Shown here piece after piece: positions 19,778 to 23,043 of a stretch of 64,000 bases of DNA. The position numbers and the translations under genes are program-made. This DNA is from Solimonas terrae (GTDB lineage Bacteria; Pseudomonadota; Gammaproteobacteria; Nevskiales; Nevskiaceae), in contig NZ_JAAMOW010000008.1 in the NCBI RefSeq assembly GCF_011067135.1, forward strand, positions 62,001 through 126,000, in the 5' to 3' direction. Positions within the stretch are counted from its first letter, which is position 1. Each line of letters starts with the position of its first letter. A model generated the notes under the pieces. That model saw nothing but the letters and a program-made list of their open reading frames with translations, searched no databases and was not told the origin of the DNA.

Positions 19778-19810
19778 CTAGGGCGGCTGCTCCACCGCAA
19801 GCCATGTCTG
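19778..19810 (-). pseudogene. gluQ: Displaced original 3' end of gluQ
   Basis: Read on the minus strand across the target duplication, this stretch continues the gluQ frame as QTW-LAVEQPP-stop (TAG at 19780-19778). It is separated from the rest of gluQ by the 2.34-kb transposon. Joining 22148 to 19810 through one copy of the duplicated octamer restores an uninterrupted gluQ. Confidence 0.75.
19803..19810. repeat. Left target-site duplication CATGTCTG
   Basis: Eight bases identical to 22148-22155, directly abutting the left end of the IS1-type element. Confidence 0.9.
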
Positions 19811-19843
19811 GGTAGTGCGTCAGTTTGAAATCTGATTCGGTCT

Positions 19844-19879
19844 GGTCATGCTTGACCGGTCAGGCTGCCGGCGTATCCT
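19844..19879 (+). promoter_or_regulatory. Promoter and palindrome for the small passenger gene
   Basis: TTGACC (19852-19857), 16-base spacer, TATCCT (19874-19879). The -10 ends six bases before ATG 19886, so transcription would start at or next to the start codon. GGTCA-TGCT-TGACC (19844-19857) and GACCGGTC (19854-19861) are palindromes over the -35, possibly an operator. Confidence 0.5.
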
Positions 19880-19885
19880 GATCGC

Positions 19886-20122
19886 ATGGCTACAAAACCG
19901 AAACGCCCGCGCGATACCAACCAGCTCGCCAAGTTCATCACGGATATTGCGTCCGGCGAAGTCGAGATGCCCAAGACCGACGACGGGAAAGATCCGGCAG
20001 CCGTTGCGCTTGGGCGCAAGGGTGGATTGAAGGGCGGCGCGGCGCGCGCGCAAAAACTGACCGCTGAAGAGCGGTCAGAGATCGCGAAGAAAGCAGCAAA
20101 GGCGCGCTGGAAGAAGGCCTAA
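19886..20122 (+). CDS. Small basic protein with GRKGGLKGG/ARW motif, transposon passenger
   Basis: Function unknown. 78 residues, strongly basic in the C-terminal half. The N-terminus reads MATKPKRPRDTNQLAKFITD; residues 43-75 hold a Lys/Gly motif GRKGGLKGGAARA, then EIAKKAAKARW. Similar short proteins occur widely as uncharacterised genes in proteobacteria. The same kind of motif opens the neighbouring P63C protein, which hints that both bind the same partner or nucleic acid. The TAA stop overlaps the convergent P63C stop by four bases (20119-20122). No Shine-Dalgarno precedes the ATG. No cysteines, membrane segment or signal peptide. Confidence 0.75.
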   Translation: MATKPKRPRDTNQLAKFITDIASGEVEMPKTDDGKDPAAVALGRKGGLKGGAARAQKLTAEERSEIAKKAAKARWKKA

Positions 20123-21144
20123 AGGCCCTTTCCATCGTCTTCTGGCAGGTCAAGCGGAAGCGCCATTGTGTGACCGTACTTTGGCTTGAACCGATCCATT
20201 TTCTCCATGAAGTCGGCCCAGTCTTTGCTCATCTGCATAAAAGCGATTACCGAACCCAAATGTTCTTTGAGCTTGGGATATCCGACATTCGTGGTCAGCT
20301 TGCGAAAGTAGTGATGCTTGCGACGACCTGATTCGAGTTTCGGCACAACTCTTCTGAGTTCTGCAAGGACGCCAGGGGCTATGCGGTCATAGACAACATT
20401 GTTCGTCAGGACGCCAAAATACTGCGGTCTCTTTACAGTTGCAGTTGGATAGTCGAGCCCACGGAGTCGGAACATCTCTTGATAGAACTCATTCGGGAAG
20501 GTCTGAACCCACGGCTGCAGTTCCTTGTCGATGAAGGCTTCCAAAATTTTGGCGAGCGCATCTTTGGCGCGATCCTTTTGGTATCCGGTCGCCTCGTCTA
20601 CAAGCGCGATGATGCCAACGCGAGCAAAACCGCGAACTAGAATCTCACACTGTTCTGCGATGTGTTCTTGTTGCTTCTGCAAAGCTCCAGCTTTTCTGGC
20701 CGCCAAAACTGCATCGCAGATATCCGCCAAGATGGTGGCTGGATATCCGAAAGCGATGCCACCACCCCCTTGATGTCGGAATTTTATCGGGGCTTGGATC
20801 AGCGCCAGTAAGTCATTGGATGCAAAGGGGGAAAGACCTTTTCCGCTCATAAATCCGGTGAGTCGGTCAGCACCGCCAGCCCGAGAACCGTACTTCATGC
20901 CCAAGGCGGCAACGACACCGCGTTGGGAAAGCACGCGCGTCTCGTCTTCGAGGACATAGCAAGGAATTTCGACGTCACCAATCTTCAACGGGTGGTCAGA
21001 AGATCCGTGCGTTACCTGCTTTACATCCTCACTCCACCTCGCAGCAGCAGCTTTTTCTCCAATCTCCCTTCTGCGCTTGGCGCTAAGCGTTTTTGCGCGG
21101 ATTACTCCGCCTTTCGCTTTGCCGGTTGCCTCGATTTCTGACAT
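20119..21144 (-). CDS. P63C domain-containing protein, transposon passenger
   Basis: Function unknown; the P63C domain is named after a phage protein and occurs in phages and mobile elements. 341 residues. Residues 8-37 carry a basic motif (GKAKGGVIRAK, then IGEKAAAARW) like that of the adjacent small protein. The middle part resembles a phage-regulator-like region (VLSQRGVVAALGMK, ALIQAPIKFRHQGGGG). The C-terminal P63C domain shows LQPWVQTFPNEFYQEMFRL, KRPQYFGVLTNN, VYDRIAPGVL and HHYFRKLTTNVGYPKLKEH. The second ATG (21144) is chosen: GGAG lies six bases upstream of it but directly abuts the first ATG (21150). It is transcribed divergently from the transposase, and its less GC-rich sequence differs from the flanking chromosome, which supports transfer. 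Confidence 0.85.
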   Translation of the reverse strand: MSEIEATGKAKGGVIRAKTLSAKRRREIGEKAAAARWSEDVKQVTHGSSDHPLKIGDVEIPCYVLEDETRVLSQRGVVAALGMKYGSRAGGADRLTGFMSGKGLSPFASNDLLALIQAPIKFRHQGGGGIAFGYPATILADICDAVLAARKAGALQKQQEHIAEQCEILVRGFARVGIIALVDEATGYQKDRAKDALAKILEAFIDKELQPWVQTFPNEFYQEMFRLRGLDYPTATVKRPQYFGVLTNNVVYDRIAPGVLAELRRVVPKLESGRRKHHYFRKLTTNVGYPKLKEHLGSVIAFMQMSKDWADFMEKMDRFKPKYGHTMALPLDLPEDDGKGL

Positions 21145-21160
21145 TTTCATCTCCGGTTAA

Positions 21161-21232
21161 TGCTTGCATAATACTGAGAAATAGTACTAATGCAAGCATC
21201 TGCTTGCATACTAGATGCGCGTCATGCATAAT
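21161..21232. promoter_or_regulatory. Back-to-back promoters sharing an operator-like palindrome
   Basis: ATGCAAGCATCTGCTTGCAT (21190-21209) is a 9+9 bp perfect palindrome with a 2-base centre. Its right arm contains TTGCAT (21204-21209), which with CATAAT (21227-21232) at 17 bases forms a promoter toward the transposase. Its left arm read on the minus strand contains TTGCAT, which with TATTAT (21173-21168) at 16 bases forms a promoter toward the P63C gene. A third copy, TGCTTGCATA (21161-21170), overlaps that -10. Confidence 0.65.
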
Positions 21233-21256
21233 GTTCACATTGAAATTGAGTAAGTC

Positions 21257-22138
21257 ATGAACGTCCTGCCCCTCTCCAAGCGCGCTCAGATCATCGGCCT
21301 ACTGGTTGAAGGCAACAGCATGCGCGCCACTGCGAGGCTGGCGGATGTGTCACTCAACACCGTGTCTAAGTTCCTCGCCGACGTTGGCGCCGCCTGCGCC
21401 GAGTATCAGGACAAGGCGTTCCACAACCTGCCGTGCAAGCGCATTCAGTGCGATGAAATCTGGTCCTTCGTAGGCGCCAAGGAAAAGAACGCATCTGAAG
21501 CCATGCGCGCGGCTGGCAACGCTGGCGACGTCTGGACGTGGACCGCGATTTGCGCCGACACCAAACTGATGCCCTGCTGGGCCGTGGGCGCCCGCAATGC
21601 GGCCGTAGCGAACGAGTTCATGGACGACTTGGCTTCGCGCCTCACCAACCGAGTACAGCTCACCACGGACGGGAATCGCACCTATCTTGATGCGGTCAAG
21701 GAGGCTTTCGTCGGCCAGGTCGACTACGCAATGCTCGTCAAGCAGTACGGCGCCGCGCCGGGAATCGAAGGCACGCGCCGCTACAGCCCGGCGGAATGCA
21801 CTGGCGCGATCAAGCAGAACGTCTCAGGCAATCCGGAAGGCGCTCATATCTCCACTAGCTACGTCGAGCGCGCGAATCTGACGATGCGTATGGGCATGCG
21901 CCGCTTCACGCGCCTGACGAATGCCTTCAGCAAGAAGGTCGAAGCGCACGCCAGCGCCGTCGCGCTGCACTTCATGTACTACAACTTCGGCCGAGTTCAT
22001 AAGACCCTACGCGTGACGCCAGCTATGGAAGCCGGTATCAGCGATCATGTCTGGACCCATGCCGAGATTGCGGCGCTGGTCGTGGATAAGGTGCCAACCA
22101 AGCGCGGCCCTTACAAGAAACGCGAAATTTCAAACTGA
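21257..22138 (+). CDS. IS1-family-like DDE transposase
   Basis: Catalyses movement of the surrounding element. 293 residues in a single frame, unlike classical IS1, which needs a frameshift between InsA and InsB. An N-terminal helix-turn-helix (SMRATARLADVSLNTVSKFL, residues 21-40) is followed by the catalytic region: candidate acidic residues D66 (QCDEIWSFVG), D138 (QLTTDGNRTYLDAV) and E204 (SYVERANLTMR). After E204 come RRFTRLTNAFSKK and YYNFGRVHKTLRVTPAMEA, typical of this IS1-related group. The tail is basic (TKRGPYKKREISN). The stop codon lies inside the right inverted repeat, and the last 28 bases overlap the new end of gluQ on the other strand. It appears intact. Confidence 0.88.
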   Translation: MNVLPLSKRAQIIGLLVEGNSMRATARLADVSLNTVSKFLADVGAACAEYQDKAFHNLPCKRIQCDEIWSFVGAKEKNASEAMRAAGNAGDVWTWTAICADTKLMPCWAVGARNAAVANEFMDDLASRLTNRVQLTTDGNRTYLDAVKEAFVGQVDYAMLVKQYGAAPGIEGTRRYSPAECTGAIKQNVSGNPEGAHISTSYVERANLTMRMGMRRFTRLTNAFSKKVEAHASAVALHFMYYNFGRVHKTLRVTPAMEAGISDHVWTHAEIAALVVDKVPTKRGPYKKREISN

Positions 22139-23043
22139 CGCATTACCCATGTCTGCGCCGGGACCGATGCCAGGCGCCAGTGCCGACGTGCCCATTCGAG
22201 CAGTAGCGATGGTGGGGCGCCGAGCAAGGCGGCCGGCGGTTGCTGCTGCAGCCATTGCAGACACAGCCAGAGATTGCGGCCGGCATCCTCTGCCGTTATC
22301 GGATTCGCGTGATTCTGCTTCGACAGCTTCAGGCCATCGCGACCGCCGATGACCGGCAGGTGGTGATAACGCGGCGCCTGCAGCATCAGCTCGCGCTGTA
22401 CGCACATCTGCGCAAAGGTCGAGCCGATCAGATCGGCGCCGCGCACGACATCGCTGATCTGCTGCGCGTGTTCGTCGATCGCGCAGGCCAGGTGGTAGCC
22501 GACGATGCCGTCGCGACGGCGCACGACGAAGTCGCCAAGCTCGCTGTCGAGCGCCCGCGAAAGCTCCCCCTGGACGCCGTCTTGGTAACGAAGTTGCCGT
22601 GCGCCGACGGTCAGGCGCAGCGCCGCATCCGTCTCGCCCAGCCGGGCTTCACGACAGGTTCCGGCGTAGACCGCACCGTCCGGGCCGATGCGGCTGCCGG
22701 CAGCCAGTTCCGCGCGCGTGCAGCGACAAGCGTACAGCCGCCCGGTCTGCTGCAGCTGACTCACTGCGGCGCGGTACTCGTCGAGATGTGCGGACTGGTA
22801 GCGCGGCGCTTCATCCCAGTACAGACCATGCGCTTCGAGCTGCTGGAGAATTCGCGCGTCGACGCCGGCCACGCAACGCGGCCCATCGAGATCGTCGATG
22901 CGCAGTAGCCAGCGGCCGTCGTGCGTACGCGCCTCGAGCCAGCTCGCCAGCGCCGTCATCAGCGATCCGAGATGCAGGGGTCCGCTTGGTGTCGGTGCGA
23001 AGCGGCCGCGGTAGGCGTGACGGGCAGGAGAGCGAACGGTCAT
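22111..23043 (-). CDS. gluQ: Glutamyl-Q tRNA(Asp) synthetase, C-terminus replaced by transposon sequence
   Basis: Attaches glutamate to the queuosine base of tRNA-Asp; a paralogue of the catalytic half of GluRS. 310 residues. HIGH-like motif PTPSGPLHLGSL (residues 18-29) and KMSKS-like GLKLSKQNH are present, with the zinc ligands in YACRCTRAEL and YAGTCR. No anticodon-binding domain, as expected. The last codons (after QTW) read VMRQFEISRFL and are encoded by the transposon end; the original tail was LAVEQPP, found at 19778-19803. As the change affects only the last residues after the catalytic core, activity may be kept. The ancestral order was gluQ then phaR on the minus strand. queF, needed to make queuosine, lies at 28.8 kb. 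Confidence 0.9.
   Translation of the reverse strand: MTVRSPARHAYRGRFAPTPSGPLHLGSLMTALASWLEARTHDGRWLLRIDDLDGPRCVAGVDARILQQLEAHGLYWDEAPRYQSAHLDEYRAAVSQLQQTGRLYACRCTRAELAAGSRIGPDGAVYAGTCREARLGETDAALRLTVGARQLRYQDGVQGELSRALDSELGDFVVRRRDGIVGYHLACAIDEHAQQISDVVRGADLIGSTFAQMCVQRELMLQAPRYHHLPVIGGRDGLKLSKQNHANPITAEDAGRNLWLCLQWLQQQPPAALLGAPPSLLLEWARRHWRLASVPAQTWVMRQFEISRFL
22148..22155. repeat. Right target-site duplication CATGTCTG
   Basis: Copy of 19803-19810 adjoining the right end of the transposon, inside the gluQ coding region. Confidence 0.9.

Follow-up and report, generated by a model that had tools for sequence, protein, structure and literature searches.

An IS1-type cargo transposon of Solimonas terrae and its relatives: a conserved small KGG-ARW protein, an exchangeable gene slot and a candidate defence role for P63C

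Classical members of the IS1 family of insertion sequences (IS) make their two-frame InsA/InsB' transposase by frameshifting, and single-frame groups such as the ISMhu11 group also exist in the family. Insertion sequences that carry passenger genes are termed tIS (PMC7986276), and in Tn3 transposons different toxin-antitoxin (TA) modules have been repeatedly recruited at one position beside the transposition genes and their promoters, which they possibly regulate (PMC7157771). Among phage-defence systems, BstA is a protein whose abortive-infection activity has been demonstrated by experiment, together with a cognate DNA element; in BTP1 the N-terminal part of the protein is KilA-N-like and its C-terminal part is distinct, the element lies at the gene start, and the published 63-bp aba requires its CCCGCC repeats (PMC8585504). 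RosmerTA and PD-lambda-2 combine helix-turn-helix (HTH) and ImmA-type peptidase proteins, PD-lambda-2 with a HigB-like partner (PMC10440598, PMC9519451). Here we compare with these systems a 2337-bp element at positions 19811-22147 of a 64,000-nucleotide stretch of the Solimonas terrae genome (contig NZ_JAAMOW010000008.1, positions 62,001 to 126,000; hereafter the window), which is delimited by 8-bp duplications and IS1-like ends and encloses genes for a small basic protein, a P63C-domain protein and a transposase, in this order.

We read the element, with a probability a little below 60%, as an autonomous IS1-type cargo transposon with a small-protein regulator and an exchangeable slot, in which P63C would be a BstA-like defence wired to the transposase promoter. 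Sequence comparison establishes the ends, the duplications, the architecture, the swapping of cargo and the recurrence of palindromes in the promoters, which vary together with the small protein. The features of the S. terrae copy, in window positions, are the following.

19803-19810: left target-site duplication, CATGTCTG
19811-19831, plus strand: left terminal inverted repeat, GGTAGTGCGTCAGTTTGAAAT, matching the family consensus at 19/19 scored positions
19849-19866, plus strand: operator-like palindrome TGCTTGACCGGTCAGGCT, with 2 mismatches to TGCTTGA-N4-TCAAGCA, overlying the candidate -35 of the small gene
19886-20122, plus strand: small basic protein of 78 aa with a KGG...ARW motif and three predicted helices, candidate regulator
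20119-21150, minus strand: P63C, 343 aa, with an N-terminal KGG...ARW motif, a Bro-N-like middle (weak structural similarity) and a C-terminal P63C domain
21161-21198, minus strand: candidate P63C promoter and operators, TGC-TTGCAT, 16 bp, TATTAT, GCAAGCA
21201-21232, plus strand: candidate transposase promoter, TTGCAT at 21204-21209 (inside TGCTTGCAT), 17 bp, CATAAT at 21227-21232
21257-22138, plus strand: single-frame IS1-type transposase, 293 aa
22127-22147, minus strand: right terminal inverted repeat, overlapping the transposase stop
22148-22155: right target-site duplication, CATGTCTG

The initial annotation had described a complete IS1-type element of this length with three genes, and this description was borne out. 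The element ends begin with GGT, as in IS1, and the inverted arms at 19809-19831 and 22127-22149 (23 nt, 96% complementary) form the top-ranked pair of the region. The locus has the GGT-type inverted ends and a duplication in the 8-9 bp range expected of the IS1 family. The transposase matches DDE_Tnp_IS1 (PF03400) with 33 bits against a cut-off of 24.1, which places it by homology in the IS1 family, and its residues D66, D138 and E204, which we take to be the DDE triad, are invariant in 25/25 aligned sequences. The element resembles IS1 and tIS in its transposase domain, its GGT ends and its 8-bp duplications, and its ends and transposase enclose genes not involved in transposition, as in a tIS. 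It differs from them in its length, in its transposase, which is one open frame with no two-frame InsA/InsB' arrangement and scores 62 bits where the NCBIfam IS1 model requires 100, and in belonging to a family in which a further gene is conserved close to the left end and the exchangeable slot comes with shared operator-like sites. The element occurs as a single copy in its own genome and is inserted at the 3' end of gluQ, cutting the last gluQ codons. Moreover, gluQ is present in each of the 11 examined genomes of the genus, own included, and in the other ten (10/10) gluQ and phaR are adjacent with no insert; the S. terrae copy is therefore an insertion absent from those relatives, and the empty gluQ sites whose existence the initial annotation had raised were indeed found.

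Relatives were sought with a transposase scan of one genome per species across 84,980 species, in which 316 stretches matched and 296 encode relatives; the family counts given here rest on 81 loci, namely the best 80 of these 296 relatives plus our own copy. Ends were located by a search with the consensus end GGTAGTGNNTCAGTTTGAAAT, and elements having both ends and duplications matching at 6/8 or more positions were regarded as complete. There are 59 complete elements among the 81 loci (own included), with lengths from 1954 to 4146 bp (median 2927), and their duplications are perfect (8/8) in 58 and match at 6/8 in one, which makes the pairing of such ends with flanking duplications more than chance. 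In the remaining 22 loci an end is missing from the examined stretch or the flanks do not match. According to their record titles, the hosts include Proteobacteria, Nitrospira, Acidobacteria, Verrucomicrobia, Planctomycetota, Chloroflexi, Actinomycetes and others. Within the class, 369 genomes gave a transposase match (1e-20) in 8 and a small-protein profile match (1e-6) in 8, one of the latter being a P63C protein only; the left end lies upstream of 7/8 full-length small genes at class level (own included), and no left end was found within the 1.3 kb examined for the eighth. In 398 genomes of the phylum, the small protein was matched at 1e-10 in 14, one of them a P63C protein.

The small gene is the constant companion of the transposase. 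A profile search found it in 59/59 complete elements, always on the plus strand and near the left end (58 full, one, L038, partial), with the match beginning 46-90 bp from the left end in 49/59 and 146-697 bp from it in the other 10. In four pairs of small genes, third codon positions differ 26, 36, 29 and 38 times, as against 3-17 differences at positions 1 and 2, and the small protein is under purifying selection. Its identities correlate with those of the transposase across 71 loci (r 0.31, a value reached by 0/500 permutations). The structural model of the protein is confident, with three helices and a mean predicted local distance difference test (pLDDT) score of 89, and gave no significant match in the PDB. 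In the plasmid copies examined, the gene is unannotated, called 'hypothetical' or, in one copy, labelled 'histone H1'.

The middle gene, on the other hand, varies among the complete elements: it is P63C in 12/59 (own included), and otherwise ImmA-type antitoxin-peptidases, Panacea, HigB, GmrSD or others. Elements carrying the three genes seen here thus do exist elsewhere, where their absence had been named as a refutation; as a fixed three-gene module, nevertheless, the set is ruled out by the swapping of cargo. In sister pairs with unlike cargo (18 pairs were compared in all), similarity breaks off close to where the small gene stops and is regained at the transposase start or slightly upstream of it, in many cases 38 bp upstream, while pairs with the same cargo match further (for example L004/L006 and L020/L050). 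The pair L057/L067 is 87% identical over the transposase block and keeps the block of left end and small gene, with no match in the middle. Cargo clusters are shared in 15 of 66 pairs of complete elements with at least 70% transposase identity, and the transposase tree of the 81 loci requires no fewer than 13 changes of the P63C state (L018 counted as BstA, not P63C). From 120 open reading frames (ORFs) of at least 95 aa in the 59 elements, 98 cargo proteins were scanned after 22 doubtful or redundant ones had been left out by eye. Among the Pfam matches listed, HTH_3 (17), Peptidase_M78 (13), P63C (12) and SocA_Panacea (4) lead, followed by NYN, AAA_21, HigB and aspartyl protease with 2 each and GmrSD, ClpP, Bro-N and DUF3800 with 1 each, and the PADLOC matches listed include RmrA (up to 10), PD-Lambda-2_B (9), capP (7) and PtuA/AriA (2); these names of slot genes are given by similarity only, and many cargo ORFs have no family match. 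The suggestion of a defined module that helps the transposon is accordingly borne out in part: the small gene and the transposase form the core, and P63C is one of many interchangeable middle genes. Of the helper roles proposed, control fits the small protein best and P63C in part, and defence or persistence fits the middle slot.

Some details of the slot deserve mention. In our copy (20119-20122), and in 15 of the 32 elements where a convergent cargo gene lies close by, the tails of the small gene and of that cargo gene share exactly 4 nt. This overlap recurs across three unrelated cargo clusters and may mark a favoured seam for the exchange of cargo. By family match, proteases of four catalytic classes occupy the slot (ClpP-like, proteasome-like, aspartyl and M78 metallopeptidase; L004, L059, L077, L040, L026, L014), and L053 carries at 1965-2930 a SecB-like protein beside an HTH-like protein, resembling toxin-antitoxin-chaperone systems.

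Operator-like palindromes were sought as TGCTTGA-N(0-6)-TCAAGCA with at most 3/14 mismatches within 80 bp upstream, and expectations were derived from Markov shuffles. They occur at 56/81 transposase promoters (2.8 expected) and at 19/72 small-gene promoters (1.4 expected). In our copy the small gene has a promoter-like TTGACC-16-TATCCT at 19852-19879 (two promoter-like sites were found in the region, 1.0 being expected by chance), and the candidate transposase promoter at 21201-21232 was not listed by the general promoter scan. When at most 2 mismatches were allowed, small proteins with a full-length helix 2 went with an 18-bp operator in 23 loci and with a 16-bp operator in none, and those with a 4-residue deletion went with a 16-bp operator in 9 and with an 18-bp operator in none. 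Besides, 23 later loci, 18 of them with a transposase promoter, provided five that could be classed by eye; all five agree, without crosses (shorter protein and 16 bp in L238, L247, L095 and L094; full protein and 18 bp in L231).

The C-terminal motif of the small protein is also the motif at the N-terminus of P63C, as confirmed by matches of the small-protein profile to P63C (E 2e-7 in our copy, down to 2e-11 in relatives), in agreement with the initial annotation. The assignment of P63C to a phage family was likewise supported, since the protein matches phrog_2384 nearly full length (residues 4-334, 1.4e-118) and PF10546 (9.5e-32), the only domain that Pfam gave for what is a single-gene cargo in our element. 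Its structural model is moderate (mean pLDDT 75), with p63 of phage Mx8 matched at 1e-7 in a viral structure library and no significant match in the PDB. In the phages Lodos, DC1 and Petra, integrase or repressor genes are found in the neighbourhood of P63C, and in SEN34 P63C stands between replication and nin-type genes, not after a repressor. Titles and opening lines of abstracts in the open-licence literature revealed no functional study of P63C.

Where P63C occupies the slot, the transposase promoter region is of a different kind. In the 220 bp that precede the transposase, the octamers TGCTTGCA or TGCAAGCA occur in 10/16 P63C loci as against 3/65 others (p 9.6e-7, uncorrected for kinship), and the P63C promoter pattern, TGC-TTGC.., 15-18 bp, a -10-like hexamer and GCAAGCA, is found in all 10 of the P63C loci selected by the octamer, as well as in 3/7 phage or plasmid, 2/2 genome and 9/80 viral P63C genes (about 0 expected). 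At the transposase -35, a TTGCAn/-10 arrangement is present in 8/16 P63C loci and in 0/65 others, whereas the TGC-TTGA form is present in 29/65 other loci and in 1/16 P63C loci; our own copy has the P63C type. The control of this link for kinship is weak, with 2-3 of 8 independent pairs differing in the second trait, all in the same direction. P63C and transposase identities show r 0.04 over 15 loci (744/2000 permutations). Viral contigs yielded at least 572 P63C relatives (at least 600 stretches), and in the best 80 of them a TGCTTGC site lies in 42/80 upstream windows as against 46/1275 windows elsewhere in the same loci. Sites follow the score of the motif, with 28/32 at 30 bits or more, 13/32 at 20-30 bits and 1/15 below 20 bits, one viral locus having no upstream sequence and being omitted from these classes. 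Viral P63C proteins with a variant motif lacking the ARW end (for example L174-L177, L189 and L190) are without TGCTTGC sites; these may read another operator, which would let the recognition code be worked out.

The comparison with BstA concerns both the protein and its sites. In L018 the left end and the small gene are present, the right end was not found, and the cargo is BstA (PADLOC, 3e-119). This protein shares 38% identity with BTP1 BstA across 84% of the query and is fused to the KGG-ARW motif, and a pair of the sites precedes its gene. TGCTTGC sites accompany the one BstA with the motif (1/1) and none of the ten without it (0/10, within 260 bp); the ten were taken from 23 records or loci with a match and consist of 4 viral loci, 4 phages and 2 plasmids, one of them, L252, being readable only from past the place of the motif. 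The remaining loci without P63C that have the octamer near the transposase, L039 and L063, hold one octamer each. Directly after cI stands bstA in BTP1 and P63C in ST104, so that P63C resembles BstA-aba as a prophage-type two-part protein in this position with DNA sites at the gene start; it differs in having no BstA profile match and in its sites, which lie within the promoter as pairs or arrays of TGCTTGC. As in TA-carrying Tn3, cargo is repeatedly recruited at one position beside the transposition genes; here, in contrast, the transposase is unrelated, the constant partner is the small protein and not a resolvase, and P63C and proteases are among the cargo, as is BstA in a single incomplete relative. 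By profile match, RosmerTA and PD-lambda-2 are frequent occupants of the same slot in relatives and absent from our own element.

The left end with the small KGG-ARW gene and the right block of transposase and promoter are fixed, and the slot between them exchanges one gene or a short operon at a time, chiefly of the toxin-antitoxin or phage-defence kind. On this basis we propose the following mechanism. The KGG-ARW helical hairpin would bind TGCTTG half-sites, so that the small protein may occupy operators at its own and the transposase promoters and repress transposition. P63C, by the same kind of motif, would bind the TGCTTGC sites that overlie its own promoter and the transposase -35 position, repressing itself and dampening transposition, and its Bro-N-like and P63C domains would act against incoming phage in the manner of BstA, paying the host for keeping the element. 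More tentatively, and with more doubt than belief, we consider that the hairpin is a new sequence-specific DNA-binding domain with a readable code and, jointly, that P63C and its sites are a BstA-aba-like abortive infection system doubling as a transposon brake. The code would read TGCTTG half-sites, the deletion of one helix turn giving a palindrome 2 bp shorter, and the motif, which IS1-type transposons and P63C have in common with one or more BstA proteins, would couple transposition control to phage defence through one DNA signature.

Several observations weigh against this interpretation. A clear transposase operator of either length is missing in 39 of 71 classed loci (36 full-length, our own copy included, and 3 shorter), and the -35 hexamer of our transposase, TTGCAT, is weak (3/6 match to the sigma-70 consensus). 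The match between operator and indel corresponds to only three state changes on the transposase tree; all 3 independent pairs agree, two of them on well-supported branches, but with so few changes a sign test cannot reach significance, and shared ancestry accounts for part of the match. The 3-mismatch threshold blurs the length split, five loci having a 16-bp match despite no 4-residue deletion of that type (L020, L025 and L045 by script, L237 and L092 by eye). L022, which is truncated on the right by the end of its contig, is a counter-example: its left end and P63C leave no space for the small gene. In 14 P63C loci with the small gene, small protein and transposase correlate with r only 0.20 (216/2000 permutations), so that, with the loci matched, the difference from P63C is not significant. 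For P63C itself, TGCTTGCA is missing in 6/16 loci (one of the six, L017, has no KGG-ARW motif, but others among them have it), the Bro-N/antirepressor structural similarity is weak (E above 1e-3), and our own protein gave no PADLOC defence-family match at E up to 1.

The transposase, too, is universal in the family and could bind the operators itself, a point that also counts against our interpretation and leads to the alternative that the small protein is an architectural or accessory transposition factor, binding DNA ends or the target, with the palindromes read by the transposase or a host regulator. Its usual closeness to the left end, its basic character, the tracking of transposase identities, the 'histone H1' label and an HTH-like N-terminal stretch of the transposase (below cut-offs) would all suit such a factor. 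We nonetheless hold it to be unlikely, given that helix length matches operator length, that the TGCTTG half-site recurs at the sole motif-bearing BstA and at viral-contig P63C genes, where no such transposase was found, and that one palindrome spanning many phyla argues against a single host factor. Slightly less unlikely is that P63C is a purely phage-derived transcription regulator recruited for transposase control, with no defence role: it has candidate operators at its own and the transposase promoters, a Bro-N-like middle and a weak match to phrog_2899 'anti-repressor Ant' (9e-4), and in SEN34 it is not placed after the repressor. Such a regulator would leave unexplained the unrelated toxin-antitoxin and defence genes that share its slot, and P63C also has the post-cI phage position in common with BstA. 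That the middle genes are neutral cargo, captured by accident through recombination between elements, appears very improbable; frequent swapping, the low sharing of cargo clusters and the many ORFs without family match speak for it, and yet a few functional classes recur (HTH_3, M78 and P63C in 17, 13 and 12 of the 98 cargo proteins) through the repeated changes of the P63C state.

The novelty of the preferred reading, a cargo transposon restrained by its small protein, is limited by its known parts, as tIS, TA-bearing Tn3, BstA and RosmerTA are already described; the combination of a constant small regulator, a slot and a motif-operator match was not found in the open-licence literature, where the KGG-ARW motif was not searched by name. 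The reading offers a predicted function for a gene that is unannotated or variously labelled on an IS1-type transposon in many phyla, proposes a function for P63C and provides a computable test, protein indel against operator length. If it is true, the small protein and the promoter signature would show how such elements restrain themselves. New defence genes could be sought in the slot, which is short and has clean boundaries.

Two further copies are of interest in their own right. In another genome of the genus (G002), the related locus L084 has a divergent P63C (29% identity), a transposase (63%) split between frames and a four-site TGCTTGC/GCAAGCA array between the two genes, and is probably an independent, decayed copy. 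The copy on an Acidiphilium plasmid (L094, 4883-5721) is inserted at the end of a RES-domain/Xre toxin-antitoxin pair.

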